Source of the DNA: Stieleria magnilauensis
GTDB lineage: Bacteria > Planctomycetota > Planctomycetia > Pirellulales > Pirellulaceae
Length of the DNA: 64,000 nt
Assembly (NCBI GenBank): GCA_007753675.1
Contig: CP036432.1
Location: forward strand, 3,818,394-3,882,393
Direction: 5' to 3'
In this document: positions 1,731-22,609 of the stretch, piece after piece
Numbering within the stretch: position 1 is the stretch's first letter
How the letters are laid out: each line of letters opens with the position of its first letter
The notes under the pieces: generated by a model
Seen by the model: only the letters and a program-made list of their open reading frames with translations
What the model was told of the DNA's origin: nothing
Databases searched by the model: none
Position numbers and translations under genes: made by a program

Positions 1731-1741
1731 TGATCAACGCC

Positions 1742-2458: not shown

Positions 2459-2470
2459 TCCGACTTCGCA

Positions 2471-3706: not shown

Positions 3707-3908
3707 GCCGCGGAACCTCTCGATTGGCTGGATTGCCGGCTCTTTTGGCCGTGCCCGGGCCCGCAGGCCATTTTCGGCTTGCCCGTGGTCGTGAATTTGC
3801 TAGGCTTTGGGGCTCGCAGTTGGCCGAGCCGAAGCGCCGGCCGAGACATCCATTCACAATTTTCTAACGGCCGATCAAGTCGGCGCAAACTTTTGGAGAA
3901 CCGACTAG

Positions 3909-3998
3909 GTGGGTACCAAGAAGACCGGTAAAGGGCGACGAAAAGTAGGACGAAAGAAACGACGCATGCGCAGCAAGATTCGGCATCGCAAGAAGTAG
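3909..3998 (+). CDS. 29-residue basic protein, AURKAIP1/COX24 (mS38)-like
   Basis: A 29-codon ORF starting GTG, preceded by TTTTGGAGAA (GGAG at 3895-3898, 10 bases upstream) and ending TAG. The peptide begins MGTKKTGKGRRKVGRKKRR and ends RSKIRHRKK; more than half of its residues are Lys or Arg. Size and pattern (KxxRRKxxRKKxRKxxxKxRxRRK) resemble the tiny AURKAIP1/COX24 domain proteins of bacteria, relatives of mitochondrial ribosomal protein mS38, which bind the small subunit near the decoding region. The role is inferred from that resemblance. A strong rho-independent-type hairpin follows at 4024, which supports a real transcribed gene. It is too short for standard gene callers and is easily missed. 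Confidence 0.7.
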   Translation: MGTKKTGKGRRKVGRKKRRMRSKIRHRKK

Positions 3999-4023
3999 AC
4001 GCCTGCGGTGATGACAAGTGAAC

Positions 4024-4053
4024 AAACGGCTTCGACCGCCATCGGGGCCGTTT
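4024..4053 (+). terminator. Rho-independent terminator after the small basic gene
   Basis: AAACGGC (4024-4030) pairs with GCCGTTT (4047-4053), and the stem runs into a T-rich stretch (TTTTTT). It lies 25 bases after the stop of the 29-residue gene, in the correct orientation. Confidence 0.7.
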
Positions 4054-4071
4054 TTTCGTGCGCGGTCGGGT

Positions 4072-4099
4072 GGTTTCAGGTTTCAGGTTTCAGGTTTCA
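4072..4099. repeat. Four tandem copies of GGTTTCA
   Basis: The heptamer GGTTTCA is repeated four times without interruption just after the terminator. A simple-sequence tract; no function can be read from it. Confidence 0.85.
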
Positions 4100-4502
4100 G
4101 ATCGCTCCCACTGGGAGAGTTCAGCGTAGCAAAGAGAGGGTTTTCTCTGCTCGGAGGGACGCGACTCTGACCGGCGAAGTGAACACCGCGATTGACCGTT
4201 CGACCTCCCCTCGCTTCGCTCGACCGGCCTGCCGGAAGGGTGGCTTCACATTTTGCGACACATGTAGACCCCCACGGGCTTGGTCGTAGTCGGCCCGGCT
4301 GGCCCTTCCCGGCTGTGATCGGTTTGACTTCAGTTGGGCGTCGGACGCTGCAACTCCCAACCGGTCTTGACTGATTCCTCGCCCAACCTCGTCTCGACCG
4401 GGTGATTGGCGATCTTGTAGGATGCGCGTTGTCGGCGTCGCGATTGCTCGAATCGCGACGCGTCCTTTTTTCCCTTAGTTACAAGAGACTGGTTCTACCC
4501 GG
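4100..4502. other. Intergenic, no gene recognised
   Basis: About 400 bases upstream of the rhomboid gene. Short ORFs here overlap on both strands and have no plausible composition, motif or ribosome binding site. The promoter of the rhomboid gene should lie at the right end, but I cannot point to convincing -35/-10 boxes. Confidence 0.5.
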
Positions 4503-5420
4503 ATGGGATTGTACGAACGTGATTACGGCCGCGAGGATGAATCGCCCTGGGATCGGCACATGCGATCACAATCCCAGATGCCCAAGAGCATGACGATCAT
4601 CTTGGTGATCATCACCGTGGCGGTCTTTCTGGTCGACGTGTTCACGGCCAAAACGGTCGGGCAAGGCGAAACGGTCAGCCGGTTGATGCCCTGGTTCGGC
4701 TGCTGGAAACAAACGCTGTTGCAGCCCTGGATGTGGCACCAGTTCCTGTCCTACGGGTTTCTGCACTCGTTGGAGACGCCGTTTCATGTCGGCTTCAACA
4801 TGTTCGGTCTGTTCATCTTCGGCCGGTCGGTCGAAGAGCGGATGGGACGCTACGAGTTTCTGCGGGTTTATCTGGTTTCGATGTTTCTCGGCGGTATTGC
4901 GGGCTGCCTGACGTACTGGGTGATGGGCGTACCATCGGGCGTGGTGATCGGTGCCAGCGGCGCGGTCAGCGCCGTGACGATCCTGTTCGCCTGCTACTAC
5001 CCCCACGCGAACATCCTGTTGATGTTTATTTTTCCCGTCAAAGCTTGGGTGGTCGCCGTTTTCTTTGTGATCAGCAACTTGTTCGGTTCATTGTCGATGC
5101 TGTCCGGGCCGGCGGGCCAGGACAGCGGTGGGACGGCCTTCACCGTCCACCTGGCCGGAATCGCATTTGCCTTGGCCTATCACTACCAACGCTGGAATCT
5201 GAGCTGGCTGGACGTTTCCAAGCACCGAAATCGCGTGGGCCGATCGGTCAAACGAACCAAGTTAAAACTGCACGACCCCGACGCCAAACTGCGGCGGGAA
5301 GAAGACGACGTGGACCGAATCCTGGCCAAGATCCACGCTTCCGGTGAAGCCAGCCTGACGCGGGCCGAGCGACGGACCCTGGAACGACACAGTCGCCGGA
5401 AACGCGAGAGCCGCAAGTGA
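4503..5420 (+). CDS. Rhomboid family intramembrane serine protease
   Basis: 305 residues with six or so hydrophobic segments. WHQFLSYGFLHSLETPFHVGFNMFGLFIFG corresponds to the rhomboid L1 loop and the helix-2 HxxxN region. VVIGASGAVSA contains the GxSG catalytic motif with Ser152, and HLAGIAFALAYHY supplies the catalytic His216. The C-terminal 70 residues are a charged cytoplasmic tail (KLRREEDDVDRILAKIHASGEASLTRAERRTLERH) similar to the tail seen in many bacterial rhomboids. Family knowledge: these enzymes cleave membrane proteins within or near transmembrane helices; the substrate here is unknown. It is monocistronic, with gaps of about 500 and 117 bases on either side. Confidence 0.9.
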   Translation: MGLYERDYGREDESPWDRHMRSQSQMPKSMTIILVIITVAVFLVDVFTAKTVGQGETVSRLMPWFGCWKQTLLQPWMWHQFLSYGFLHSLETPFHVGFNMFGLFIFGRSVEERMGRYEFLRVYLVSMFLGGIAGCLTYWVMGVPSGVVIGASGAVSAVTILFACYYPHANILLMFIFPVKAWVVAVFFVISNLFGSLSMLSGPAGQDSGGTAFTVHLAGIAFALAYHYQRWNLSWLDVSKHRNRVGRSVKRTKLKLHDPDAKLRREEDDVDRILAKIHASGEASLTRAERRTLERHSRRKRESRK

Positions 5421-5537
5421 GACCGGTGCGTTGCCGTCGTTTGGTTTCACGATCGGGTCAGGATCTGTCCTGGCGAGATTGATCATGCAGGACGAGTTCC
5501 TGAGCTACACACCACCACGTCACCATGAGGGTTCCCG

Positions 5538-6179
5538 ATGAGTTCACCACCCGTTTCGTTCAGGCTCGCTCGTTCCACTCGCACACGCTCAGGCGTGGCA
5601 CTCGTCGCACTGCTGGGCGGCCTGTTGGGTGGCCTGCTGGTTGCTTCGCCGCTGTCAGCGGCAGACGCTGACAAACCAATTGCCGTCGGTGACAAGGCGC
5701 CTGATTTCGAATTGCCGGTCCAAGGCAAAAACGGATTCGTGACGCTCTCGCAGCTCAACGAGCAGGGTCCCGTGGTGGTCGTCGTTCTGCGGGGTTATCC
5801 GGGGTACCAGTGTTCGATCTGCAAGCGACAGGTCGGCAACATCATCAATCGAGCCAAGGCACTCGCCGCAGCGTTGGGCGATCAACCGAATCGTGTGCTA
5901 CTGGTTTATCCCGGCAACGAATCCAGCGCCGAACTGGATCGACTGGCCACACAATTCATCGGTGGACGCAGGATGCCCGATCCGCTGGTGATGGTCTGCG
6001 ACCCGGGGATGGAGATGGTCAAATCGTGGGGGCTTCGCTGGGACACACCTCGCGAGACCGCCTATCCGGCGGCGTACGTGATCGGTGCGGGACGCCGCGT
6101 CGAGTGGGCCAAGGTCAGCGATTCACACGCCGGTCGCGCCTCGGTCGATGACATCTTGAAGGCGCTCAAGAACCTGTAG
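5538..6179 (+). CDS. Exported AhpC/TSA (peroxiredoxin-like) thioredoxin-fold protein
   Basis: 213 residues. The N-terminus has basic residues, then the hydrophobic stretch GVALVALLGGLLGGLLVASPLSAA, an export signal likely cleaved after SAA/ADA. The mature part opens with VGDKAPDFELPVQGKNGFVTLSQL, the standard AhpC/TSA N-terminal strand, followed by VVVVVLRGYPGYQCSICKRQ with a CxxC pair (Cys92, Cys95). RGYPGYQCSICKRQ rather than the PxxxTxxC of true peroxiredoxins makes this a redoxin-domain protein with thioredoxin-type cysteines. It probably acts as a periplasmic thiol reductase or oxidant sensor. It stands alone between the rhomboid gene and the sugar-nucleotide pair. Confidence 0.82.
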   Translation: MSSPPVSFRLARSTRTRSGVALVALLGGLLGGLLVASPLSAADADKPIAVGDKAPDFELPVQGKNGFVTLSQLNEQGPVVVVVLRGYPGYQCSICKRQVGNIINRAKALAAALGDQPNRVLLVYPGNESSAELDRLATQFIGGRRMPDPLVMVCDPGMEMVKSWGLRWDTPRETAYPAAYVIGAGRRVEWAKVSDSHAGRASVDDILKALKNL

Positions 6180-6257
6180 TGCTCCGTCAACATTTAGATT
6201 GACGGTGCCGCTCGTGTTTGTCATTTCCCGTTCCCTTCCAATTATCCGGCGACCGCC

Positions 6258-7127
6258 ATGCAGGTTCGAAAAGCAGTCATCACAGCTGCGGCCCCCAACC
6301 AGAATCGTATTCCAACCCAGCAACTGGTTGACTGCCAGGGGAAAGACAAATCCGCGTTGCAGCTGATCCTTGAAGAGGTCCTGTCCTGCGGCGTCGAAGA
6401 GATCTGTCTGGTGATCCGGCCGGGCGATCAACGGTCCTTTGAACAGGCCGCCGGTGATCTGGTCGGCAGTCTGCAATTTGTCGAACAACCCGAGCCGGTC
6501 GGATACGCCGACGCGATCTTGCGTGCCAAGGGGTTCGTCGCCGGAGAACCGTTTCTGCACTTGGTCGGCGATCACTTGTATTTGAGCGCGTCGAACCTCT
6601 CCTGTGCGAAGCAGTTGGTCAACGTGGCCTCGGAGTTTTCGTGTTCCGTCTCGGCCGTCCAGTCAACGCGTGAAAACAACCTGCCCTACTTCGGAATCGT
6701 CTCGGGCACCCGCGTGGCGCGAAAGGAGGGTGTTTTTGAAGTCCAACGGGTGGTGGAAAAACCGACTCCGACACGCGCGGAGCAAGAATTGGTCACGCCA
6801 GGACTTCGATCCGGTCACTACCTGGGCTTCTTCGGCATGCACGTGCTGACCAACGACGTCATCGCCGCGCTGGAACAAGTCGTCGCGGATCACTCGGTCA
6901 GCAAGCCGACGCTGTCCGATGCGCTGGACGTGCTCCGTTCGCGGCACAAGTACATGGCCTATGAAGTTCACGGGACGCGCTACAACTTGGGCATTCCCTA
7001 TGGGTTGCTGATCTCGCAATTGGCGATTGCACTCTCGGGACGCGATCGCGATCGAATCCTGACCGAGTTGGTGGACTTGCTGGCACAGCGCAATGCCGTC
7101 GCCGTCGACGGGGGACGGAACGCATGA
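6258..7127 (+). CDS. GalU-like sugar-phosphate nucleotidyltransferase, signature loop degenerate
   Basis: 289 residues with the overall plan of bacterial UTP-glucose-1-phosphate uridylyltransferases: an N-terminal strand (KAVITAAAP), the VEEICLVIRPGDQRSFEQAAGD helix/strand pair, VEQPEPVGYADAILRAKGFVAGEPFLHLVGDHLY with the metal-binding-type Asp105, and a Lys/Glu region around RVVEKPTPTRAEQE. The expected glycine-rich G-x-G-T-R-x-x-P loop at the N-terminus is replaced by AAAPNQNRIPTQQ, so catalysis is uncertain; it may be a regulatory or altered-specificity paralog. Its stop overlaps the start of the next gene as ATGA (7124-7127). Because that gene has a UDPGP-family domain and a sugar-kinase domain, the two probably act in one pathway. 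Confidence 0.75.
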   Translation: MQVRKAVITAAAPNQNRIPTQQLVDCQGKDKSALQLILEEVLSCGVEEICLVIRPGDQRSFEQAAGDLVGSLQFVEQPEPVGYADAILRAKGFVAGEPFLHLVGDHLYLSASNLSCAKQLVNVASEFSCSVSAVQSTRENNLPYFGIVSGTRVARKEGVFEVQRVVEKPTPTRAEQELVTPGLRSGHYLGFFGMHVLTNDVIAALEQVVADHSVSKPTLSDALDVLRSRHKYMAYEVHGTRYNLGIPYGLLISQLAIALSGRDRDRILTELVDLLAQRNAVAVDGGRNA

Positions 7128-10100
7128 GCAATCGATTGATTGACATCATTCGGTCGGAAGACGATTCGGTTCGGCACCGTTCCTTGGAATCGGTCGTCGC
7201 CGACGCCGACACGCAACAACTGCTCGAGCATTGCCGACAACTGGACGCCTACCGACGGACCGAAGACAACCTTTATTGTCGCGTCCGCGCCTTGTTCTTT
7301 CTCTCCTCGATCCACCGCTATCACCTGCCGGATCGACTCGAGCAGGAGCTTACCGATTCGACCGCGCGACGCTGCGACGGATTGATCCCCTTTAGCGGTT
7401 ATGAGCATCTGCTTTCGCGTCGCTTCGGCGAGGCGATCGATGAATTTCTTCAGACCCAGGAAACGTCCGGCCCCAGCGATGCGGTCAGCAGCGCCTTGGC
7501 CCAAGCGTATCACCAACTGGGTTTTCAAACGCTGGCCGACCAGGTGCGAAAAAGCGTTCGCACGGTCCGCGGCAATCAATGGATGTTTCGCCTGGGGCAC
7601 CCGATCGACCATCCGCTACGGCTGCGGCGTGAATTGCTCGACGGCGATCAACAACACGGTGTGATGCCGTTGCTGTGTGAAACGACCGCAGTCCGCATGG
7701 ACCTTTCGCACAGCGCCTGGAGCGACATCTTTTTTTTAGGGATGGACTACCCCGAAGGCGCGCGGGTGTTGAACATCTCGGTCGACCTGGGTGTGCGTGG
7801 TCGAGACGATCACCCCAGCCCGCCGATTGAAACCTACCTGCGGGTGATCGACGAACCGGTGTTCCGATTGGCCAGCGTCGACTTGGCGGCAACCGCCGAC
7901 GTGACAACGATCGGCGAGATGTTCGATTTTGCCCGCGATTATTTAGGCTTGTTGAAAGCGGCCGTCATCGCCGCGGGCATCGTTCCGCCGGGGCTGGAAG
8001 GCTGTGGTCGACCGATCAGCGAATTGCTGACCCAACTGGTCGGTCCCGGCAAAGGTCTGGAACTGGTCTCCAAGATCAACGACATCCCCAAGGGGTCGCG
8101 GTTGGCCGTGTCGACCAACCTGCTCGGCTCGCTGATTTCGATTCTGATGCGTGCGACCGGACAGATCGAATCACTGACCGGCGGATTGACCGAATCCGAG
8201 CGGCGTCTGGTGGCAGCCAGGGCGATTCTGGGTGAATGGATCGGCGGCAGCGGAGGCGGCTGGCAGGATTCCGGTGGGGTCTGGCCGGGCATCAAACTGA
8301 TTTGTGGCACCGATGCCGGCGAGGGAGATCCCGAGTACGGCGTCAGTCGCGGACGATTGATGCCAGTCCACGATGTCTTTGATCGCAAACGGGCGACCGA
8401 GCAAACCCGTCAAAAATTGCAGGACTCGCTCGTCTTGGTGCACGGCGGCATGGCGCAAAACGTTGGCCCGATCTTGGAAATGGTGACTGAGCGTTACCTG
8501 CTGCGCAGCGAAGCGGAATGGATCGCCCGCAGTGAAGCGATGTCGATTCTCGATGAAGTCGTGGCGGCGATCGAGTCGGGCGATATTCGCAAGATCGGCC
8601 AAGCCACCACTCGCAATTTCCAAGGCCCGTTGCAGACCATCATTCCCTGGGCGACCAACCGTTTCACCGATCGACTGATCGACGCCTGTCGTGACCAATA
8701 CGGCGACCAGTTCTGGGGCTTTGTCATGCTGGGCGGCATGTCCGGCGGCGGCATGGGGTTCCTGTTTGATCCGTCGATCAAAGCGAAAGCGAGCGATTGG
8801 CTTCAATCCAAGATGATCGAAGTCAAGACACAGTTGCAGACCGCGTTGCCATTCGCCATGGACCCGGTCGTTTATGATTTTTCGATCAACGATCATGGCA
8901 CTTGGGCAGAACTGCGAACCGGCGGCGATGGGATCATGCCCGACCGCTATTACCAATTGGTCCTGCCCGGACTGCTGCGAACGGCGCCGCGTGATTTGTC
9001 ACCCAACCGACGGTCGGAGCTGCAGTCGATCGCGCGGCGCTGCGCCGAAGGACAGATCGCGACGACTGCCTCGTCGAAACTGTTGCAAAGCGTCCTCCCC
9101 CACGACGAATCCAAGCAGCGATCTGGCGGCTCCTTGCACGAACTGTTGCACGCGATCGGGTTCGACGCCGAACAACACGAACAAATCCGTGCCGATCTGA
9201 AAAACGGACGCATCGGATTGGCACAGAACCGGCTCTCGCCCAGCACCACGATTCGCGACGTCGGCCCGGAGCACGTCACCGACGTCCGCCAAGGCTGTGC
9301 GGCGAAAGACATTCGGGCAGGGAAACAGGCGATCGCCGACGGACAGGTCGCGGTTGTGACGCTGGCGGCGGGCGTGGGAAGCCGCTGGACCGAAGGCGCC
9401 GGCGTCTGCAAGGCACTACACCCCTTCCATCGGTTTGCCGGCCGCCACCGAAGTTTTCTGGAAGTCCACCTGGCAAAGACGCGCGCGACCACACGCGCGT
9501 TCGGTGGACCAATCCCACACGTCTTCACGACCAGCTATTTGACCGACGCCCCGATTCGAGAACACCTGCAGCAGAACGATGATTTCGGGTTCGAGTCGGG
9601 TGTTGAAGTTTCCACCGGTAAGAGTGTCGGATTGCGAATGGTACCGACCGTCCGCGATCTCCATTTTCTTTGGGAGGAAACGGCCAGCCAGGTCTTGGAT
9701 CAACAGCAGCAAAAGGTTCGCGAGAGTGTTCGCGCGGCGCTGATGAATTGGGCCAAAGCGACCGGCGAAGCGAGTGACTATACCGACAACGTCCCCAACC
9801 AGTGTCTGCATCCGGTCGGTCACTGGTACGAAGTTCCCAACTTGCTGCGAAACGGAATGCTGCATCAATTGTTGCAGGATCAACCGTCGCTTCGCTATCT
9901 GCTGCTTCACAACATCGACACGCTCGGTGCAAACGTCGACCCCGGGCTGCTGGGGATGCACATGCGGAGCGGCGCCGAACTCAGTTTCGAAGTCATCCCG
10001 CGTCGCTTGGAAGATCGCGGCGGCGGACTGGCGCTGGTCGCCGGCCGGCCCCGATTGGTCGAAGGGCTCGCGATGCCGGACGAACGCGTCGAATTCGATT

Positions 10101-12750: not shown

Positions 12751-13644
12751 ATGCATAATGTCTTACTTGCCATCGACGGATCGACCCCTTCAATCGAAGC
12801 CGCCAAACTGCTTGCTCACCTTCCCCATCCGGACAGTTTGGACCTGACGGTGTTGAGTGTCGTTCAACGTCCTTTCATTCACAGCAGCTATGCGACGGGC
12901 GAATTGCTGGAAAAGGCGTTTGAGCGAGACAAAGCCTTTGCCAACGAGACGTTCAGGCAGGTGGCAGAGATGTTCGACGGGGCCAATGTCACGATCAAGC
13001 ATGCGATGCGTGAAGGTCCGGTCGGTGAATCCATCGTCGAGCTTGCCGGATCGCAGAAACGAGATTTGGTGGTGGTCGGTGCCAAGGGGCATTCGCAAAT
13101 CACGCGTTTGTTGTTGGGCAGCGTCAGCGATCACGTCGCCACCCACGCCCCCTGCAGCACGTTGGTGGTTCGTCCCACGGGGCTGCACGAAACGGCACGT
13201 CCGATCCGAGTCTGCTTGGCGTACGAGAGCAGCGACTCGGCGTCCTTGGCGTTGGAAGAGATCGCAGAAGTCCCTTGGAAAACGGGCACCGATTTTCATC
13301 TGCTGACGGTCGAAACCTACCTTTCGGACTTCATCGGTCAGCGCATCGCGGACGAGGGCATCGAGATCTCGTCGCACTACCTCGACGGTCTCTCTGACGC
13401 CAAAGAGCGACTGGCCGACGTGGCCCCGCACGCCAAAACGCATCTGGTCAAAGGGGATCATATCGGCGAAAGCATCGTCACCTTTGCCGAAGACAACGCC
13501 ATCGACTTGCTGATTGTCGGTGAGACGCCTCGGAGCGCGGTGAATCGATTCCTATTGGGCAGCACGTCGCGGTATGTCTTGCGTCATGCACCTTGCAGCG
13601 TCTGGGTGACACGCAATCGAGCGGTCAAACACTTGGACTCTTAA
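12751..13644 (+). CDS. Universal stress protein, two UspA domains
   Basis: 297 residues in two Usp repeats. Domain 1 begins MHNVLLAIDGSTPSIEAAKLL and ends with the ATP-binding signature VVGAKGHSQITRLLLGSVSDHVATHAPCSTLVV (G-2x-G-9x-G-S/T). Domain 2 ends with LLIVGETPRSAVNRFLLGSTSRYVLRHAPCSVWV, where the GxxG part is less complete. Such tandem Usp proteins bind ATP and are induced under starvation, low oxygen or oxidative stress. Start supported by CTGGAG ten bases upstream. A second, homologous tandem Usp gene follows 32 bases downstream, so the pair is one transcript and probably a gene duplication. Confidence 0.92.
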   Translation: MHNVLLAIDGSTPSIEAAKLLAHLPHPDSLDLTVLSVVQRPFIHSSYATGELLEKAFERDKAFANETFRQVAEMFDGANVTIKHAMREGPVGESIVELAGSQKRDLVVVGAKGHSQITRLLLGSVSDHVATHAPCSTLVVRPTGLHETARPIRVCLAYESSDSASLALEEIAEVPWKTGTDFHLLTVETYLSDFIGQRIADEGIEISSHYLDGLSDAKERLADVAPHAKTHLVKGDHIGESIVTFAEDNAIDLLIVGETPRSAVNRFLLGSTSRYVLRHAPCSVWVTRNRAVKHLDS

Positions 13645-13676
13645 ACCACACCACCACCTCTCTGGAGCGTGAGACG

Positions 13677-14636
13677 ATGAAAGTCTTGCTAGCGACCGAT
13701 TGTTCTCAGCAGGCGGCAGCGGCCGCAAAATTTCTGCGCTCGCTGAAATTCACCGAGCCGATGAGCTTGACGATCATCACCGCGCTCGGCGACCCCTACG
13801 GGTCAAGCCCAGAATCGACCCAGCATTGGTTTCCCGAACTGCTTCGACAAGAACGTGCGCGGGCGGAAGTGCATCAAGCCGACATGGCAAAGCTATTGCG
13901 CGAACGCTGCACACGTATCGATACGATCTGTCGTCCGGGCCATCCGGTCAAAGTCGTCTTGGGCGAAGCCAAGGATTTGGACTGTGATCTGATCGTCATC
14001 GGTGCCCGCGGCCACTCGTTCTTCGGCCGTTTGTTGATCGGCAGCGTCTCGGACAGCATCGCCACGCACGCCAAATGCTCGGTGCTGGTCGTCCGCCCGC
14101 CGGAAGAGGAAGATAGTCAACGCGACGCCGATGCGTCCAAGGCCAATCGAATCCTGATCGGTTACGACAGCTCGAAAGCGTCTCGTGATGCCGTCGAAGA
14201 GCTCATGGCACTCGATTGGCAGGCCGACACCGAGGTCGAATTGCTCAGCGTGGCTCCGATCTACGATTATCTGCTCGGCAACGGTTTGTCGACCGCCGCG
14301 ATCGCCAACGAAGAGGAGATTTTCAAGGAGATGAAGCAGGGTGGTGATCAGATGAAGGACCGCTTGATCAAGAAATTGCCTAAGACCCAATCGGTGATCA
14401 TTCATGACCAGCGGGTCGGAGACGCGATCGCCGATCTGGCGGACAAAAGTGATTCCGATCTCGTCGTCGTCGGTGACTCCGGTCACAGCTTGCTGGACGA
14501 CTTCCTGCTCGGCAGCACCACAAAGTACGTGTTGCGTCATGCCCCCTGTAGCGTCTGGATCTCCAGGCACCACCGCACCAACCCTGATCCAGACACGACC
14601 GCGGCCGACGCAGTCTCCAACGGGACTTCAGAATGA
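13677..14636 (+). CDS. Universal stress protein, two UspA domains (paralog)
   Basis: 319 residues from ATG 13677, preceded by TCTGGAGCGTGAG; the reading frame extends further left but that part overlaps the preceding gene. Domain 1 begins MKVLLATDCSQQAAAAAKFL and carries VIGARGHSFFGRLLIGSVSDSIATHAKCSVLVV. Domain 2 carries VVVGDSGHSLLDDFLLGSTTKYVLRHAPCSVWI. The ATP-binding GxxG(9x)G(S/T) pattern is intact in both halves. Co-transcribed with the preceding Usp gene. Its 3' end overlaps the convergent LuxR-type gene by 9 bases (14628-14636). Confidence 0.92.
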   Translation: MKVLLATDCSQQAAAAAKFLRSLKFTEPMSLTIITALGDPYGSSPESTQHWFPELLRQERARAEVHQADMAKLLRERCTRIDTICRPGHPVKVVLGEAKDLDCDLIVIGARGHSFFGRLLIGSVSDSIATHAKCSVLVVRPPEEEDSQRDADASKANRILIGYDSSKASRDAVEELMALDWQADTEVELLSVAPIYDYLLGNGLSTAAIANEEEIFKEMKQGGDQMKDRLIKKLPKTQSVIIHDQRVGDAIADLADKSDSDLVVVGDSGHSLLDDFLLGSTTKYVLRHAPCSVWISRHHRTNPDPDTTAADAVSNGTSE

Positions 14637-15146
14637 GATCGATTGCAGCGGAGCCGCGTTGGGGTGACAGTAGCGGGCGGCAAAGCCCGTGAGTGATTCG
14701 ACACTGGGCAGCGCCAGTTTTTGTCGCGCCCGTCTCAAGTGCGTGTGAACGGTGCTCGCGCTGACGTCCAAGCGTTCGGCAATTTCACGGGTCGGGCAGC
14801 CCAACGCCAACAGTCCCAAAATCTCGCGCTCTCGATCGGTAAGCGTTTTCAGTTCGCTCGGGATCAACACCGACAACACGCACACGGCGACCTCCGGACG
14901 GTCCAGCGGCCACAACCATTCGCGTGAATGTTGGCCGCGTTTGTTCTCCAGCTCCAGTGTCGCCTTTTCACCGAGCGTGACGACCTTGGCAAAGGCCAGC
15001 TTGGCCCGCTCGCTCGATTCACCGGTCAAGTGCTTCCATGCCAAATCACCGGGTTTCCAAGACGGCTTTCGATCGCTACGCCAGATCACATGGCCTCGCC
15101 AGTCGCAGATCGTGACATTTATTCCATCCAGTATCACATCAGACAT
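14628..15146 (-). CDS. LuxR/GerE-type transcriptional regulator
   Basis: 172 residues. The C-terminal helix-turn-helix is unmistakable: LTDREREILGLLALGCPTREIAERLDVSASTVHTHLRRARQKL (about 102-144). The N-terminal 95 residues (DGINVTICDWRGHVIWRSD..., then ELENKRGQHSREWLWPL) look like a degenerate PAS-type sensor without an obvious phosphoacceptor Asp, so this is not a standard response regulator. It may respond directly to a ligand or redox state. Convergent with, and overlapping, the universal stress pair; whether it regulates them is inference from position only. Confidence 0.85.
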   Translation of the reverse strand: MSDVILDGINVTICDWRGHVIWRSDRKPSWKPGDLAWKHLTGESSERAKLAFAKVVTLGEKATLELENKRGQHSREWLWPLDRPEVAVCVLSVLIPSELKTLTDREREILGLLALGCPTREIAERLDVSASTVHTHLRRARQKLALPSVESLTGFAARYCHPNAAPLQSISF

Positions 15147-15595: not shown

Positions 15596-16489
15596 TCACT
15601 GCACATAGGCTTCGGCCGCATATTGATTGCTCAATCGCGTGCTGCTGTCACACGGCAGCGTACGATAGGTGTACCCGGCCGCCTTGACCGCGTCTTTGAC
15701 CGGATTGAATTCCGAAAATGAATCATCCCAAACGGCGATCAACACATGAAATTGCCCGGGCTTGAATTCGGCCTTCAGACGCGTGACCAAGTCGGACAGC
15801 GATTGCGAGGTCACCGGCGATCCGCGGTGTGGCTTCGGCGTCACGCGCGTCAACGAGCGACTGTGCTGTAGTACAAAGAAATCGTCGCGATTGACGCCTT
15901 CGCTGGGTCCGGTTTGTAACAGGTACCAACGCCCGTACCGTAGCAACACGACCGCCTCATCGGTCATGCTACGACTCAAAGGGCGGAATTCAACGGACCG
16001 TTCGGACTGGGTGCGGATCGCGCTGGCGGTGGCCGCTTGGTCGGCGATCTGTTGTTTCACGTCGGCGATTTGTTGTTCCAGTTCGGACTGGTTCGCCAAT
16101 TGATCCCGCAACGCCTGCTGTTGTGCTTCCTTCAGGTGATCGGTCCGGCCGGCGTGGCGTCGTGCCAGCGAGAGCGTCTGCTCGAGGGATCGCAACCGAT
16201 CCGATTTGGCCATCACGTCGCCGTCGGGGTCCAGTTGTCGCATGATTTCTTGCTGAGCCTGGATCGCGGCGGCGGTCTGCCGGATCTTTGCCTCCACCAG
16301 TACCGCACTGACCGGCACGGGCCGCTCCTCGACTGCGTCGTCCGGTTCCGCCGGCGCGGTCCCTCGCGCGATGATCAACAACGCCGCCAACAGCGTCAAA
16401 AACATCACGCCCCCAAACACATTGGACACCGTGTCCAGTAACAGTTCCAGCGAATCGTCTTCGTTGCTGTTCGTCCTCCGCCGGCTCAT
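15596..16489 (-). CDS. ExbD/MotB-like protein 2 with coiled-coil linker
   Basis: 297 residues, last gene of the operon. A short charged cytoplasmic N-terminus (MSRRRTNSNEDDSLELLLD) leads into one membrane helix (about 21-41, VSNVFGGVMFLTLLAALLII) with an acidic residue (Asp19) at its cytoplasmic mouth, the position of the proton-carrying Asp in ExbD/TolR. Residues 65-150 are a heptad-rich coiled coil (LRSLEQTLSLARRHAG, LANQSELEQQIADVKQQIADQ). The C-terminal domain includes FHVLIAVWDDSFSEFNPVKDAVKAAGYTYRTLPC, which has the strand-helix-strand pattern of the ExbD periplasmic domain. ATG overlaps the upstream stop (16486-16489). ExbD assignment is inference from layout. Confidence 0.65.
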   Translation of the reverse strand: MSRRRTNSNEDDSLELLLDTVSNVFGGVMFLTLLAALLIIARGTAPAEPDDAVEERPVPVSAVLVEAKIRQTAAAIQAQQEIMRQLDPDGDVMAKSDRLRSLEQTLSLARRHAGRTDHLKEAQQQALRDQLANQSELEQQIADVKQQIADQAATASAIRTQSERSVEFRPLSRSMTDEAVVLLRYGRWYLLQTGPSEGVNRDDFFVLQHSRSLTRVTPKPHRGSPVTSQSLSDLVTRLKAEFKPGQFHVLIAVWDDSFSEFNPVKDAVKAAGYTYRTLPCDSSTRLSNQYAAEAYVQ

Positions 16490-17364
16490 CGTGCGTCCCC
16501 CTCGATACGGTCCCCTTCGATCGGCACGTTGCCCTGAACCGTGATCTCGGAATCTTCGTCCAACAACTCTAACGCCAGATTAAATCCGGCCTGACGGAAA
16601 TCAGATAACAAGACGGCACCGGCGCCGGCCACCGAGGGACGCAGCACCAGGATGATCGATCGCGTTTGAGTCTTGTCCGCTAACACGTCACTGATTTGGG
16701 CAACCGTCTGCATCGGGAGCTGCTCCCGGTCGTAGGACACGGTGGTCACATCGGTGAGTTGGAGCACATCGAACAGTTCCGCGTAGGTGTCGCGCAAATC
16801 GACGACCCACATCGGACGCGTGGGGCTTGCGGTGGTCTTGAATGCGACCAGTTTGCCACTGCGGTGGAGCACTTGTTCTTGTTTCAGCGACTCCAACTTT
16901 TCCCGAAGTCGCTCCCGCAATTCAAGGATCTCTTTGCGCTGCTGACTCATCTGCTGTGACGCCACCTGCTGCTGTAACTTCTCTGCCTGTGTCTTCGCCT
17001 CGTCGGCTTGACGAACCAGTTCGGCGAGTTCCGATTGAGCGGCCTGGATGTCAAAGTCCAGGTCGCGAGCGGTTGCATCGAGCAGTTCCTGGTTGTCGCG
17101 GCGCAGTTGTTTTAACTGTTGTTCCAGCTGATCCAAATCCTGGAAGGGATCTTCCATCGCCTCGTCCGGCGGCGTTGTGGCAGCAGCGGCGTTGGCGGCA
17201 TCATCGGCCAGCTTTTCCTGCAGTTCAGCCGCTTGGGTCGCCAGTCGTAGACTCAACTGCACCACCAACAGCAACAAGATAAACAACATCACACCGGCGA
17301 CACCGGTGATGATGTCTTGAAAGGCAAACAGGTTGACGGTCTGCTCACGTCGTCGACGTCTCAT
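16486..17364 (-). CDS. ExbD/MotB-like protein 1 with coiled-coil linker
   Basis: 292 residues. MRRRRREQTVNLFAFQDIIT then a membrane helix (about 18-38, VAGVMLFILLLLVVQLSL) with Asp17 at its entrance, the ExbD/TolR layout. A long coiled coil follows (about 45-165: LQEKLADD..., LDQLEQQLKQLRRDNQELL, KLQQQVASQQMSQQRKEILELRERLREKLESLKQEQ). The C-terminal part RSIILVLRPSVAGAGAVLLSDFRQAGFNLALELLDED resembles the ExbD periplasmic strand-helix-strand. Canonical ExbD is about 140 residues; the extra length is the coiled coil. Starts 6 bases after the ExbB-like gene and overlaps the next gene by ATGA. Together with the other ExbD-like protein it could form a heterodimeric plug. Confidence 0.68.
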   Translation of the reverse strand: MRRRRREQTVNLFAFQDIITGVAGVMLFILLLLVVQLSLRLATQAAELQEKLADDAANAAAATTPPDEAMEDPFQDLDQLEQQLKQLRRDNQELLDATARDLDFDIQAAQSELAELVRQADEAKTQAEKLQQQVASQQMSQQRKEILELRERLREKLESLKQEQVLHRSGKLVAFKTTASPTRPMWVVDLRDTYAELFDVLQLTDVTTVSYDREQLPMQTVAQISDVLADKTQTRSIILVLRPSVAGAGAVLLSDFRQAGFNLALELLDEDSEITVQGNVPIEGDRIEGDAR

Positions 17365-17370
17365 CGTGCA

Positions 17371-18369
17371 TCACTCCAACACAATGGGCCCATCGATGAC
17401 AACTGCGTCCGCGTCTGCTTCGCCTTCCTGGATCACTTCGACCGGGGCAAAACCCGTTTCGTCGTCTGGAATCGATCCAGTTGCGTCCGATTGTGGTTTC
17501 GTTTCAGACGTGACATCGCTCGCGTCGGAATGTGCGATTCGGCTCAGCACTTCGCGCTGACAATACTCCGTGCATTCATCAAGAAACTCTTCTTCCTGTT
17601 TCTTCTGAAACGTCATCGTCATCTGGACCAACAACGCCGCCATCAGGGCCAGTAGTGTTGTTTCAAAGGCTGTCGCCAGTCCGCCCGTCACACCTTGAAG
17701 CGCGCCGATCAATTTCGACGGGTCTTCGGTCTGGCTGAGCACCCGTCCGAATCCGCCGATCGCGATCGATAGTCCCGAAACCGTCCCGATGAAACCGAGA
17801 ATCGGAATCGCCCACACCAACCCGCGAATCAGATTGAAACTGGTTTCCATCACCGATTCGTCGTGCTCGGATTGTGTCCGCAAGATCTCGCCCAGATCGA
17901 CCACACGGCTCAAGTTCCGGGCATTGGACAGGCCGACTTCGATTCGATGCAGCAGCACAAACCGTTTGGGATCGTCACAGACTTCGTACAAGCGATGCAA
18001 CACTTCGCTCACCCGATCGACCGACAGGACAAAGTCGATTTGGTCCGGCATCACGCGCAGCCGTAGCGCCTTTTGTTGCAGCTTCAGTTTGGCGCGTTTG
18101 AACCACAGAATCAGCATCGACCAGACGGAAAAAAAGACGATCACCGGCGGCGTCCAACCTCGTCGAATGAACATGTCCACGATCGGATTGGAACCGATCG
18201 CGACGAACGATCCGAACAGGGCCACCGTGATCGCCGCGGCGATCAGCGCGGGCAACACGCTGCCCACACGCGTGTAGCGCGCGCCCGCAAAACCGAAACG
18301 GCGTTCGATGTCACGTCGCATCCAAACGAGTCGATCGTTGCTGACCGGCGATGCATCCACCTTGTTCAT
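17371..18369 (-). CDS. MotA/TolQ/ExbB proton channel family protein
   Basis: 332 residues from ATG 18369, which overlaps the upstream stop as ATGA; the frame extends further but the overlap decides the start. Membrane helices: about 36-59 (GSVLPALIAAAITVALFGSFVAIG), about 75-90, about 180-207 (LIRGLVWAIPILGFIGTVSGLSIAIGGF) and about 226-250 (TAFETTLLALMAALLVQMTMTF). The last two have the family signature: P-x-LGFIGTVxG and TAFxTTLxAL. A cytoplasmic region lies between helices 2 and 3 and an acidic tail ends the protein. Expected to form the pentameric channel around a dimer of the following ExbD-like proteins and to convert proton or sodium flow into movement. Confidence 0.9.
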   Translation of the reverse strand: MNKVDASPVSNDRLVWMRRDIERRFGFAGARYTRVGSVLPALIAAAITVALFGSFVAIGSNPIVDMFIRRGWTPPVIVFFSVWSMLILWFKRAKLKLQQKALRLRVMPDQIDFVLSVDRVSEVLHRLYEVCDDPKRFVLLHRIEVGLSNARNLSRVVDLGEILRTQSEHDESVMETSFNLIRGLVWAIPILGFIGTVSGLSIAIGGFGRVLSQTEDPSKLIGALQGVTGGLATAFETTLLALMAALLVQMTMTFQKKQEEEFLDECTEYCQREVLSRIAHSDASDVTSETKPQSDATGSIPDDETGFAPVEVIQEGEADADAVVIDGPIVLE

Positions 18370-20438
18370 TTCCTGGTTGTGGAGGGAGTTGATACGGCGG
18401 AGCGTGGTGAGACGACACAGAGGATCGCGCCGCACTGCTGGGCGTCCGGATGGGTCACCCGGAGTGGCTTTGATGTCGGCGCCGCGCCGATGTCGACGCG
18501 TTTCGTCTGTCCGGTTTGCGAATCGACCGGAAAAACAACCAGCGGATCGGAATCGGCCGTCTCACTGAGAACCGATTCGTAGTATTCACCGTCCAGGGAG
18601 ACCCAACCGATCCAACGCGGCGCCGGCGGACGGGGGCTACGGAACGCTTTGAATTCGGCGAGCATCCGTTCGACGCGATTGTTCCAATCGTCCACACCTT
18701 CGAGCAGTCGTCTCGCTTGAGTCACTTTTACCAGTCGATCCACGTCTTCAGGGTCAGACGTCAACCAGTTGGTTTCCCAGTCGAAATCGGACGCTTGCAA
18801 GGATTCGAGCCAATCACCAAAGGCCAATTTGATCGGAACGCTTCCCTGGACGGCGATCTCCAACACGCGTCGCATCCAAATCAGTCGATAGATCGGATCA
18901 AATTCCGGCTCGCTCTGAAACGATCGCAACTCGCTGATCAAACGATACGCGACGGGAGTGAAGTCGGTCACCGTGACGTCGGTGACGCTGGGCGCCATCT
19001 TCGCGGCGAACTGGCTGTGCCCCGACAACGCAACCTTGGGCAGCACTTCCTCACGAAACCGCAAGCCGAAGTTTTGGGTTTCACGCTCCAACGAGGGATT
19101 CAATAAAACCGAAACAAGGTGTGCCCGCGGCGACTTTGGATCCGGCGCCTGTTCCGAATAAAACACACTGCCGCTGGGATCGGGATAGACATAGATGCGA
19201 TTGACCAACGGTGACCGAAACGCCTCACGCAGTTCCTTGATCGCCTCGTCACAGCCGGCGAGGGTTTGATACGTCGCCCGCCATCGGGTCGCCGGAACGG
19301 ACAGCGGATGCTCAGGCTCCAGCGATTCGGCGTGCTCGAGCGTCGCCAACCAGGCTTTCGCCATCTCAGCATCGGCCGATTGTGGCTGTTGATAAGCGGG
19401 ATGGCTCAGCACATCGATCCAGGCAAGCGTGGCATCGATGGCGTCGGCACTCGGGGCGTCTCGCTGCAACCGCTGGGCCAACGTGTCTCGGGGCCAATCG
19501 TCGACAAACTGCTCGATCGCTCGCCTGTAACGTTGGGCGTTTCCCACCGATCGCGTGATCGCCTGAACGAGCTTGTCGCGGTCGGTCTGCTTCCTTTCCT
19601 GCTGGGCGGACGCGGCGAGCATTTTGGCTGCCTGTTTGGCTGCCTCGCTCAATTCCGGATTGCCCAGTTGATGGTCGGCGGCAAACCGCCCCAATTCTTG
19701 TTGCAACTCAAAACGTCGTGCCGCCCGCGCGTCGTCATCAAGTTCCTCGGATTCGACACGAAGGAACCGCTCGACCTTGTCTTGCAATGTCTCGAAAGCA
19801 TGCGTTTGATCGTTCGCGCGGGCGGCTTCTCGTTGCAACCGTTGCTCTTCCACTTTGGCAAGCATTTCGCTGGCGAACTGCCGCTCCTCATCGCTGCGCG
19901 CCAACGTGTTCAATCGTTTGACGTCTTCGGCATCAATGTCGGTCACAGAAGAGGATCGCATCTGATCGGCCAAACGTTTGAATTCAGCCTTGCGTTCGGC
20001 TTCGCGGGCGATCGCTTGATCGACCATTTCACGGCCGCGGACGAACGCGGGTTCGGATCGCGTGTTCTCGTCGAGCTGATCGAGAAAGTCGGATGCTTCG
20101 TCCCAGGATTCCGCCGCAACCAATTTATCGAACTCGGCCTCGTGATTGACCAGCGTTCGCATGCGGTCCAGAGTGGTCAAGCCGAATGCGCCGACGACGG
20201 TCGCAAACAGGCACACCACACAGGCGACGGCGAACATCAGCCGACGCCGTTCCAACATGCGTTCGGCCTGGACGTACTCTTCGGCACGGTACCGCAACAG
20301 CGACGAGAATGCCTCGCCCGACTGCTCGGCCGCCGATTCCGCCGCTGCCAAAGCTTCAGAAACCTCTTCGCGCGACGCACCGGTTTCCAGTGCACGTTGC
20401 AGACGATGAAGAACCGGGTCGACGTTTCGCTGAATCAA
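18366..20438 (-). CDS. Large membrane-anchored coiled-coil protein of the ExbB/ExbD operon
   Basis: 690 residues from a TTG start (weakly supported). Residues 1-65 are a cytoplasmic helical region (LHRLQRALETGASREEVSEALAAAESAAEQ), then one membrane helix (about 68-90, LMFAVACVVCLFATVVGAFGL). About 600 residues follow, with long charged helices (about 95-260: ERKAEFKRLADQMRSS, RQFASEMLAKVEEQRLQREAARAND) and a mixed alpha/beta C-terminal region. No catalytic motif is visible. It lies directly upstream of and overlaps the ExbB-like gene, so it is likely the structural partner on which the channel complex acts, or its periplasmic scaffold. Family not recognised; probably planctomycete-specific. 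Confidence 0.7.
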   Translation of the reverse strand: MIQRNVDPVLHRLQRALETGASREEVSEALAAAESAAEQSGEAFSSLLRYRAEEYVQAERMLERRRLMFAVACVVCLFATVVGAFGLTTLDRMRTLVNHEAEFDKLVAAESWDEASDFLDQLDENTRSEPAFVRGREMVDQAIAREAERKAEFKRLADQMRSSSVTDIDAEDVKRLNTLARSDEERQFASEMLAKVEEQRLQREAARANDQTHAFETLQDKVERFLRVESEELDDDARAARRFELQQELGRFAADHQLGNPELSEAAKQAAKMLAASAQQERKQTDRDKLVQAITRSVGNAQRYRRAIEQFVDDWPRDTLAQRLQRDAPSADAIDATLAWIDVLSHPAYQQPQSADAEMAKAWLATLEHAESLEPEHPLSVPATRWRATYQTLAGCDEAIKELREAFRSPLVNRIYVYPDPSGSVFYSEQAPDPKSPRAHLVSVLLNPSLERETQNFGLRFREEVLPKVALSGHSQFAAKMAPSVTDVTVTDFTPVAYRLISELRSFQSEPEFDPIYRLIWMRRVLEIAVQGSVPIKLAFGDWLESLQASDFDWETNWLTSDPEDVDRLVKVTQARRLLEGVDDWNNRVERMLAEFKAFRSPRPPAPRWIGWVSLDGEYYESVLSETADSDPLVVFPVDSQTGQTKRVDIGAAPTSKPLRVTHPDAQQCGAILCVVSPRSAVSTPSTTRK

Positions 20439-20496
20439 AAGTGCACCGCTGACTGGGAAGACAAGACCGACCGCAGCGCGATCACGCTGCGTTGGC

Positions 20497-21030
20497 TCAC
20501 TGAATCTCGATGAGGTCCCGCTCCAAGCTTAATTCGCTGTTGGTCCGCCCGGTACTCCCTTCCAGCCGTTCGAGTAAAGCTTCCAGCTCTTTTCGCATTT
20601 GCCGAACCTCCGCATTGGTCACGCTCGAGCTGGTCGAGGCACCTTGGCCTTCGTCCTCCAGATCGGACTCGGGTGATTCCCCCGCTGATCCGCCGGCCGG
20701 ATCTCCCCGCAGGCCTGCCAATTCGGTTTCCAAGTCAAAGTCTTTGCCCGGCGGCGGCATCAGTCGCGCTGCGTCCAAGGCCTGCTCAAGCGCGGCTTGC
20801 GATTGTCCCCAACGACGGTTGGACTGAGCTTGCTCGAGCAATTCTTTGGCCGCATCGACCCGGCTCCGCCAATCCATCTCGCCCGACTCGTCTCGGAACG
20901 CCAATTCCTCCTCACGATCAGCGATCGCCTGGGCCTGGCGCTTTTGTGCCGATGCAGGAGACGAAGCCGGTGGCGGGAAACAGCCACAGCAAACCAACAG
21001 ACAGCCAATCACAACGTACGTTCTCTTCAT
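20497..21030 (-). CDS. Small lipoprotein with helical body
   Basis: 177 residues from ATG 21030 (a GTG three codons earlier is possible). MKRTYVVIGCLLVCCGCFPPPASSPAS is a lipoprotein signal; the lipidated Cys is either within VVIGC or the Cys of CCGCF. The mature part is mostly acidic helix (KRQAQAIADREEELAFRDESGEMDWRSRVDAAKELLEQAQ) and ends with a coiled coil (NAEVRQMRKELEALLERLEGS). Starts 9 bases after the stop of the double-thioredoxin gene, and is followed after 58 bases by the large coiled-coil gene. Probably an outer- or inner-membrane lipoprotein of the same complex. No recognised family. Confidence 0.72.
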   Translation of the reverse strand: MKRTYVVIGCLLVCCGCFPPPASSPASAQKRQAQAIADREEELAFRDESGEMDWRSRVDAAKELLEQAQSNRRWGQSQAALEQALDAARLMPPPGKDFDLETELAGLRGDPAGGSAGESPESDLEDEGQGASTSSSVTNAEVRQMRKELEALLERLEGSTGRTNSELSLERDLIEIQ

Positions 21031-21039
21031 CACCGTCAC

Positions 21040-22215
21040 CTATTCCAGATACGTTTCTTTCATTTCGGCCAGCAACGCTTCCAGCAGTTCCGTTTCGCCG
21101 ATCATCCCATTGTGACGAAAGACGATCTTACCGCCCGGCGCGACCAACACGGTGTGCGGCTCGGGCCCCTCCCACTGTGGATCCAATGCCGCGATCAGTG
21201 CATCAACATCCGGGTCGGTAAACAGATAATTGTTCGACGTTCGGCCTTCGGATTCCAGCGAGGGTTTCAATCGCGCCGGCAGTGCGGCTCGGTTTGCCGA
21301 CAGAAAGGCGAGTACACGGTCGCGGTTTTTAGGCAGATCGGTGCTGATGGTGATCAGCTCAAATTTTCGCAATCCCATCCGCCGCGAAACACGCGTCAGC
21401 CCCGGAAACTCTTCGACGCATGGCGCACACGTCGTGGACCAAACATTGAACAATCGATACTTGTCGGTGTTGTTTTCGACCAACTTGGCCAGCCCCGCGG
21501 CATCGATCTCGTCCAGCGTCACCTCCGCCGATTGCCAACGCGTCTCATCCTCTTCCACGTTGACGATCTTTTCACGCCACTTCGTCGAACAGCCGAACGG
21601 TTTGGTCACCGGGACAGGCACGGGTTTTCCATTTAAGAGCGCGAGAACGGCGTCACGTGTTTCGCGCGACTTGACCGTCGCAGGGTCTGGATAGCGGGAA
21701 TTGTCCAGACGCCCCTTGTAGCGCAACTTTCGGTCGGAATCAAAAACGAAAACATGGGGCGTTGCCAAACAGCCATAGCTCTTCGCCGTCGCTTGCGTGG
21801 CCCCGTCGTACAGGTACGGAAACGTGAATCCATGTTCTTTCGCATACGGCGTCATGTCTTCGAAACTGTCATCGTACTTGGAATAGCCCAATTCGTCGGG
21901 CCGAAGCCCGTCGCCGGAATTGGGATTGATGGCGACGACCCTCACGCCCCGGCCGTCGACTTCGCGAACCAATTCCATGAATCGCGGATCGTGGGCGTGG
22001 CAGACCGGACAATGGTTGGACGTGAAGTAAACGATCAACACCTTTCCGTCTGAAAAATCGTTCAAGGTCCAGTCACGGCCGTCGATCCCCGGCAATTTAA
22101 AGTCCGGTGCCGCATCGCCAATTTCCAGGGTTTGCAGTCCGGGTGGAAAATCGGCCCCGCCGGACAACGAGGGCACACAGCTCAGGGCCAACAACACGAG
22201 TAAAACTTTGGGCAT
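21040..22215 (-). CDS. Exported protein with two thioredoxin-fold domains
   Basis: 391 residues from ATG 22215; the frame runs further upstream but residues MPKVLLVLLALSCVPSLSGGA form a clean signal peptide here. Domain 1: IGDAAPDFKLPGIDGRDWTLNDF, then YFTSNHCPVCHAHDPRFMEL with a CPVC active site, and GCLATPHVFVFDSDRKLRYKGRLD with the cis-Pro loop (an AhpC/TSA-type redoxin). Domain 2: LFNVWSTTCAPCVEEFPGLTRVS with a CAPC site, like TlpA/ResA. Both pairs are intact, so it can probably relay electrons or act as a periplasmic thiol oxidoreductase. First gene of the operon that continues into the lipoprotein and the ExbB/ExbD genes; the domain partner pathway is unknown. Confidence 0.82.
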   Translation of the reverse strand: MPKVLLVLLALSCVPSLSGGADFPPGLQTLEIGDAAPDFKLPGIDGRDWTLNDFSDGKVLIVYFTSNHCPVCHAHDPRFMELVREVDGRGVRVVAINPNSGDGLRPDELGYSKYDDSFEDMTPYAKEHGFTFPYLYDGATQATAKSYGCLATPHVFVFDSDRKLRYKGRLDNSRYPDPATVKSRETRDAVLALLNGKPVPVPVTKPFGCSTKWREKIVNVEEDETRWQSAEVTLDEIDAAGLAKLVENNTDKYRLFNVWSTTCAPCVEEFPGLTRVSRRMGLRKFELITISTDLPKNRDRVLAFLSANRAALPARLKPSLESEGRTSNNYLFTDPDVDALIAALDPQWEGPEPHTVLVAPGGKIVFRHNGMIGETELLEALLAEMKETYLE

Positions 22216-22609
22216 CACGATCACTCTGAGGGGAAGTGGCGATATCGGTTCGGTTTCCGGTGCACCCGATTGTAGCGGAACTCGCCGGGCATTTTGCGGT
22301 CCCTCGTTCATCTCACCCGAACCACGAGCGGTGAAGCCGTGAGATCGCAGGATTGACGATCAACGTGAGCTCTAAAAGATCAACGCCGAAAAGCAGCCCC
22401 CCTCGACTCGACTCGATTTCCGCACCTTTTTAGCGGAAACGCGTGTTCATCGCGGTCACTGCGGGAGTCCGTCGACTGATGTTTCGCGATTTGGCACGAC
22501 GTGTGCGATGCACTGAAATCCGCCAACGCAATGTTGAATCTCGATGATGTCCATTGAGACGACTTGTGTGTACCAATCCGGGGCGCAATACCAGAGAGGA
22601 GAACCGATC
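22216..22609. other. Divergent promoter region, no gene recognised
   Basis: About 390 bases between the double-thioredoxin operon (minus) and the DUF5658 gene (plus). It must hold both promoters. I see no strong palindrome; the ribosome binding site AGAGAGGAG at 22592-22601 belongs to the DUF5658 gene. Confidence 0.5.

Follow-up and report, generated by a model that had tools for sequence, protein, structure and literature searches.

How do one ion channel and two different plug-like proteins, encoded side by side, fit into a single machine? The question is raised by a six-gene operon of Stieleria magnilauensis (GenBank CP036432.1), contained in the 64,000-nucleotide stretch of DNA that was analysed (positions 3,818,394 to 3,882,393 of the forward strand; "the window" below). 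The host genome is a single contig of 10.77 Mb, here called C1, so that the window is C1:3818394-3882393. Three of the six genes encode an ExbB/TolQ/MotA-type channel subunit and two distinct ExbD-like subunits, B and A. With a probability of roughly 60%, we take this trio to be an ion-driven 5:2 motor whose plug is made of A and B together, serving in most relatives as the output of a GTPase switch and uncoupled from it in the clade of the window.

A search of reference genomes with B gave at least 80 loci, on which the counts of loci out of 80, 77, 71 and 43 given below rest; their titles name Planctomycetota, Lentisphaerae/Victivallales, Desulfamplus, Verrucomicrobia and other groups, and many belong to metagenome bins. 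The complete trio, meaning a channel in the locus together with an adjoining A, was identified in 65 of the 80. A lies directly after B in 70 of the 77 loci with room for it, and a channel is found within about 4 kb upstream of B and on the same strand in 65 of the 71 loci with at least 1 kb upstream. Since the trio recurs in 65/80 loci, this arrangement is far beyond chance. An earlier note on this DNA had proposed to check whether the six genes stay together in related genomes; they do in the case of the channel, B and A and of the 690-amino acid (aa) protein encoded ahead of them, but homologues of the remaining pair, one a thioredoxin-like protein and one a small putative lipoprotein, were detected at only 3/80 and 4/80 loci respectively, all of them belonging to the nearest relatives of the window (L009-L012; the contig of L012 begins within this region). 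These two are thus not general partners of the trio, and the dedicated periplasmic and lipoprotein partners that the note had envisaged were seen just in the window's closest kin. Two Desulfamplus loci (L054 and L059) carry a channel and a short B (210-234 aa), but nothing close by was recognised as A, which may be missing there or have diverged too far.

Subunits A and B share one architecture: a short N-terminus and a single hydrophobic helix whose N-terminal end bears an Asp (Asp19 in A, Asp17 in B). Past this transmembrane (TM) helix, the AlphaFold2 models predict about 95 further residues of helix leading to an alpha/beta domain at the C-terminus (mean predicted local distance difference test scores 82.9 for A and 74.2 for B; predicted template modelling scores 0.47 and 0.42). 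The Asp at the end of the helix had been pointed out for both proteins in the earlier note, and this end would lie on the cytoplasmic side. Using hhalign, A and B match each other at 98.9% over their full length, at 95.4% when only the N-terminal parts are compared and at 85.6% for the C-terminal parts; judged by these alignments, they are paralogues. A fold search with the model of A found structural resemblance of its C-terminal domain to the solved periplasmic domains of ExbD and TolR, and no ExbD chain was among the 50 matches listed for B. An ExbD-type ending, as once proposed for both proteins, may thus be present in A and is conceivable in B. ExbD was not among the 25 commonest families listed for homologue sets of 38 and 45, searches of PDB sequences with A and B returned mostly coiled-coil proteins among the 60 matches listed, and comparing the fold of A with viral models yielded no useful match. 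Covariation in length between A and B (70/72 pairs, rho 0.43) is uncorrected for kinship and was not used.

The pairing of A with B is argued for primarily by two sister families of the window's own family, here called family I. Family II is represented by six divergent loci, and family III by a second trio within the same genome (L163 in Table 1), with a canonical ExbB-ExbD pair on that strand at a distance of a few kb. Both families keep the gene order channel-B-A. The A of family I matches the A of families II and III at 99.4% each by hhalign (96.8% and 97.6%, respectively, for the C-terminal domains alone), and its B matches the B of family III at 98.8% over the full length (78.4% for the N-terminal part, 62.5% for the C-terminal part) and that of family II at 97.9% (82.7% and 8.4%). 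In family I the Asp is present in all 62 homologues of B and in 89 of 91 homologues of A, the two without an aligned Asp having, in one case, a late start and, in the other, a long extension. In family III, an Ala takes the position of the Asp in B in 120/120 sequences (the best 120 of 1164 homologues). Within a sample of 35 family III loci from 35 genomes, the window's genome included, B was found at 34, of which 33 have Ala and one, L202/L208, has Asp, and A was likewise found at 34, with the Asp in all; neither lies nearby at L166/L209. In family II, B has a Ser there in 6/6 loci, and A has the Asp in all five in which it was found, of the six loci. At L202/L208 (genome G053), B and A are on the strand opposite to the channel.

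An A+B heterodimer is the simplest reading of the Asp-less B of families II and III, because a plug made of two copies of B would there have no proton-carrying Asp, yet B has been kept beside the channel. Together with the conservation of the pair, this argues for the proposal of the earlier note that the two ExbD-like proteins would join in one plug.

The channel itself belongs to PF01618 by Pfam (37.9 bits, curated cut-off 22.9), and its hydropathy profile has four hydrophobic segments. An alignment of 43 channels contains 31 invariant columns besides the start Met. Thr196, Thr228, Thr237 and Thr238 are invariant in 43/43, and three of them, Thr196, Thr237 and Thr238, lie in the last two TM helices, as is expected of pore threonines. 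In a channel tree, which leaves out rows III_L166 and II_L181, family I is united with support 100/100 and is joined with family II at 100/100, with family III forming a grade; the three families are split from the six canonical PF01618 channels of the same genome (100/100) by a long branch, the position of the root being uncertain. The claim that this is a channel lineage distinct from the canonical systems is well borne out by that branch. A profile of the channel reached TolQ among PDB sequences only at E 0.09, and a search of plasmids found one distant channel, from Anabaena.

A link to a GTPase switch, which the earlier note had missed, is suggested by four further families found upstream of the trio in most relatives: a DO-GTPase-like protein, GAP1, a linker subunit of about 990 aa designated c2, and a GYF/zinc-ribbon/TM protein. 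Of the loci with a channel, 43 extend for 8.5 kb or more upstream of B; among these, c2 was detected in 38, GAP1 in 35, the GYF protein in 30 and the DO-GTPase-like protein in 26, counted with home-made cluster models built from the same loci and with the GTPase near the edge of the fetched flank. Pfam recognises GAP1-N2 in 35 and GAP1-M in 34 of the 37 GAP1 candidates, and DO-GTPase2 in 19 of 91 mixed members, 26 of which came from the GTPase cluster. L184 and L187 are complete examples of the GTPase module plus trio. In a set of 60 relatives, the family I channel is present in 15 (E <=1e-60), all of which have a strong GAP1-N2 match (E <=2e-24), as against 7 of the 45 genomes without it having one at E <=1e-20 (Fisher p 3e-9, a value that is too small since the genomes are related and the cut-off was picked after the list had been seen). 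Five of the 15 (G005, G011, G012, G013 and G033) have the channel and GAP1 genes on a single contig, separated by about 7 kb. In a sample of 199 genomes from across the phylum, the family I channel was found in eight (E <1e-100) and GAP1-N2 in 13 (E <=1e-10), with GAP1-N2 in 6/8 genomes having the channel vs 7/191 others (Fisher p 6e-7); in four of the six with both, they are within 8 kb of each other on one contig.

The operon in the window departs from this pattern. The DO-GTPase and GAP1 genes are absent from it, and the same genome has a DO-GTPase, GAP1, full-length c2 and GYF operon with no channel alongside, 1.2 Mb away (L130 in Table 1). The 690-aa protein of the window is a second c2, which starts shortly before the TM helix and is without the 280-300 or so residues that precede this helix in the others and that are presumably cytoplasmic there. 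The place of c2 in the operon is similar to that of the fibronectin type III-repeat component of DO-GTPase/GAP1-N2 systems; no Pfam family was detected in the two c2 proteins scanned (those of the window and of L075), and the possibility that c2 is a simple tetratricopeptide-repeat protein was dropped on the same result. One genome, G013, has both a window-type trio (contig C46) and a GAP1-linked one (C113). We infer from all this that the operon in the window is a copy of the motor that has become separate, lost its coupling to the GTPase and acquired periplasmic partners. A second GAP1-N2 match in the host genome, a 269-aa frame beside a small DO-GTPase-like open reading frame (ORF), lies at about 6706-8393 on the plus strand of L131 (C1:10331000-10346000); it belongs to another subtype, and neither c2 nor motor matches lie near it.

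In the mechanism that we propose, an ExbB-like pentamer in the inner membrane would surround one A and one B, forming an obligate heterodimeric plug. Passage of ions past the Asp of the A helix, and in family I also that of B, would turn or tilt this plug, and its coiled coil would carry the movement into the periplasm, where it would be directed at the portion of c2 that lies past the TM helix of that protein and at the outer membrane or cell wall. In most relatives the motor might be the output arm of the DO-GTPase/GAP1 switch with which its genes are associated, the state of the switch presumably reaching it through the N-terminal part of c2 and the GYF/zinc-ribbon/TM adaptor. In the clade of the window, where the operon has no GTPase, GAP1 or GYF gene, c2 is shortened, and the thioredoxin-like protein and lipoprotein have joined, the result would be a GTPase-uncoupled envelope motor, possibly tuned by redox state. 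The turnstile model published for 5:2 motors has the two protonation sites of the central dimer exchange places in steps of 36 degrees (PMC9389320). The A+B plug of family I could follow the same swap; in families II and III it could not occur as drawn, because there is only one protonation site. The broader claim, of a branch of motors with an obligate paralogue heterodimer as plug, GTPase-switched in family I (with the window's clade freed) and running on one Asp in the two sister families, is a tentative one, to which we would give slightly less than even odds.

A number of observations weigh against this reading. PF02472 (ExbD) is absent among all Pfam families at E up to 1 for the A and B of the window, and aligning A and B by hhalign with sets of 7 or 29 ExbD sequences gave a probability of at most 7.1%, with 100% for an ExbD-vs-ExbD control; membership of the ExbD family by sequence profile thus failed for both, and of the ExbD similarity that the earlier note had hoped to see by profile searching, only the structural likeness of the A domain stands. 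Equating the B of family I with that of families II and III leans on gene order, the LFxF motif and the full-length scores, and the N-terminal part of the family I B fits the A of family III slightly better (88.6%) than the B (78.4%). This mismatch leaves the odds of a heterodimer unaffected, because the argument made within families II and III is independent of which family I subunit is B. The one-Asp argument does come from the sister families, with both A and B keeping the Asp in the window's own family; the family III B of L208 keeps it too, in 9 of the 120 homologues of the family III B an acidic residue occurs among the 24 positions from the motif on, and an Asp-less B could be an accessory membrane protein, not half of a plug. 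As for the switch, the Pfam matches to DO-GTPase2 are weak, some of them below the curated cut-off, GAP1 is absent upstream in 8/43 loci, and when any GAP1-N2 match is counted among the 60 relatives the comparison becomes 15/15 with the family I channel vs 25/45 without. G130 and G243 have the family I channel but no GAP1-N2, and the reverse, GAP1-N2 with no trio, is seen in G007, G008, G010 and other genomes. The trio itself is not universal: by the rule of the script, 7/77 loci have no directly following A, with no A at all at L054, L059, L065 and L073, none adjoining at L026, and L035 and L042 falling outside the script's limits, probably through alternative start codons; there is no channel at L033, L045, L053 and L073. 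Finally, the redox role suggested for the thioredoxin-like protein is a guess.

Other explanations have been considered. A and B might each form a homodimer, giving two motors that share one channel and have separate tasks. With the Asp retained in both proteins of the window's family, either homodimer could in principle conduct, and the choice between hetero- and homodimer is not settled for AglQ/AglS (PMC9389320) either. We still think this arrangement unlikely: the sister B without the Asp (6/6 family II loci, 33/34 in family III) remains downstream of the channel, where a plug made of two copies of it should be dead.

The trio could also serve mainly in defence, as a Zorya-like sensor motor or as the depolarising membrane effector of a GTPase-controlled conflict system; ZorA1 is matched by the channel in PADLOC at 9.2e-8, and GAP1-N2/DO-GTPase modules are predicted conflict systems, with pore-forming effectors among others (PMC7159879). 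An OmpA-type family was not found in A or B by Pfam, the 332-aa channel lacks the long cytoplasmic tail described for ZorA (PMC11890865), and the trio is kept over several phyla, whereas the effectors treated in PMC7159879 are described as highly variable; a role chiefly in defence therefore strikes us as rather doubtful. An ordinary Ton- or Tol-like energiser with unusually long ExbD subunits, working in uptake or outer-membrane upkeep, would account for the PF01618 channel, the single-helix Asp subunits and the ExbD/TolR-like domain of A. It is quite improbable, given that a Pfam scan of the six operon proteins and three neighbours found no TonB or TolA family among the six, that nine PF02472 matches lie elsewhere in the genome, and that the channel falls outside the group of its six canonical channels. 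The ion-driven motor with an A+B plug thus remains the reading that we prefer.

Were that reading true, the one-Asp motors of families II and III would be unable to run a turnstile; the cycle would then not hold for all 5:2 motors, or else these complexes would be gated channels instead of rotary motors. Since the plug would consist of two different subunits, one of them Asp-less in the sister families, each site could be mutated and counted separately, with no need for engineered tandem dimers, and the lineage would offer a direct test of the need for two alternating sites. The DO-GTPase/GAP1 link, in turn, would amount to a nucleotide-controlled ion motor and would provide an output for the predicted conflict systems.

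Table 1. Genes of the window operon (window coordinates) and related operons elsewhere in the host genome (coordinates within L130 and L163)
Feature	Position	Strand	Remarks
Exported double-thioredoxin (TlpA/ResA-like) protein, 391 aa	21040-22215	minus	ORF opens at 22311
Small putative lipoprotein, 180 aa	20497-21039	minus	No family above cut-off; lipobox read by eye
690-aa protein, c2 paralogue	18366-20438	minus	One hydrophobic segment, residues 67-85
ExbB/TolQ/MotA-type channel subunit, 332 aa	17371-18369	minus	PF01618; four hydrophobic segments
ExbD-like subunit B, 292 aa	16486-17364	minus	Motif LFxFQDIIT, Asp17 in TM helix, coiled coil, C-terminal alpha/beta domain
ExbD-like subunit A, 297 aa	15596-16489	minus	Motif LLLDTVSN, Asp19 in TM helix, coiled coil, ExbD/TolR-resembling C-terminal domain
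DO-GTPase-GAP1-c2-GYF operon	L130 (C1:2624000-2642000), 2596-9790; C1:2626595-2633789	minus	Full-length c2 at L130:3522-6413, 963 aa
Family III trio	L163 (C1:9155000-9168000), ORFs 207-1250, 1247-3370, 3367-4863; C1:9155206-9159862	minus	Channel 498 aa, B 707 aa, A 347 aa; B: Ala in place of TM Asp

The six closely spaced minus-strand ORFs of the window, in the order thioredoxin-like protein, lipoprotein, 690-aa protein, channel, B and A, are all located where the earlier note had placed them, and the nearest relatives of their products are named Stieleria and Rhodopirellula. Two of the junctions are ATGA overlaps (690-aa protein/channel and B/A), not three as had been claimed; the thioredoxin-like and lipoprotein genes abut instead, TAG being followed by GTG with a gap of 0, and gaps of 58 and 6 bases separate the lipoprotein gene from that of the 690-aa protein and the channel gene from B. 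The reading of the first protein as a double thioredoxin was correct: the profile (Pfam AhpC-TSA, 1.7e-30) covers two redoxin stretches, each with one CxxC seen by eye, and there is also an NCBIfam TlpA/ResA-like match below cut-off. The absence of TonB, TolA, Pal and flagellar genes stated in the earlier note was checked for the six operon proteins and three neighbours. Scans for promoters and terminators gave signals no better than those of shuffled sequences. Just downstream of the operon, at 12751-14636 on the plus strand, are two adjoining proteins that by eye look like tandem universal stress proteins, beside a LuxR-type regulator gene (Pfam GerE) at 14628-15146 on the minus strand. Elsewhere in the genome, at L161 (C1:10004000-10020000), three PF02472 matches come after a canonical match of ExbB type, all on one strand, possibly a multi-ExbD cluster of another kind.

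Among known systems, the trio shares with ExbB-ExbD and TolQ-TolR the PF01618 channel, the pore threonines, a single-TM partner with Asp and a C-terminal domain, and the likeness of the A domain. It differs in having two coiled-coil-extended partners of about 295 aa that lie outside PF02472, no TonB or TolA family among the six proteins, and four channel segments. ZorA of the Zorya ZorAB pair is the best PADLOC match of the channel; the long ZorA tail and the OmpA family are missing here and the plug is made of two proteins. PADLOC finds ZorB1 in 2/89 mixed members (best E 5.8e-4), with no ZorB among the matches listed for the window proteins. The DO-GTPase2, GAP1-N2/GAP1-M and GYF genes upstream in most relatives' operons are those of the GTPase-centric conflict systems described in PMC7159879, a paper that also names GYF proteins from planctomycetes; neither MotA nor TolQ occurs in its main text, the literature listings count no ExbB or ExbD for it, and the window operon lacks the module. 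In the open-licence literature, seen mostly as titles and the beginnings of abstracts, no report was found of a link between such a motor and GAP1 or of one-Asp plugs, and the available part of PMC12505986 has no mention of a GTPase.

With the vWA force-transducer motors of the Planctomycetes-Verrucomicrobia-Chlamydiae (PVC) group, which carry paired TolR-like genes (PMC12204202), there is a resemblance in the genes of cluster c5, encoding vWA and other proteins, near the trio in 18/43 loci, and the c5 and PVC vWA sets may partly overlap. The reported SHLS-His helix has no match to a simple pattern in 36/37 c5 proteins, the sole match being a distant gene at L083; the window operon has no vWA match by Pfam, and the relevant section of PMC12204202 contains no GTPase or GAP1 link. 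AglRQS, compared here by description, likewise has one channel with two different MotB/TolR-like partners (PMC9389320), as the two different Asp-bearing partners are found here, and no GTPase or GAP1 link is mentioned for it in the available part of that paper. One channel with two different TolR-like proteins thus already has precedents, in AglRQS (PMC9389320) and in the PVC clusters (PMC12204202).

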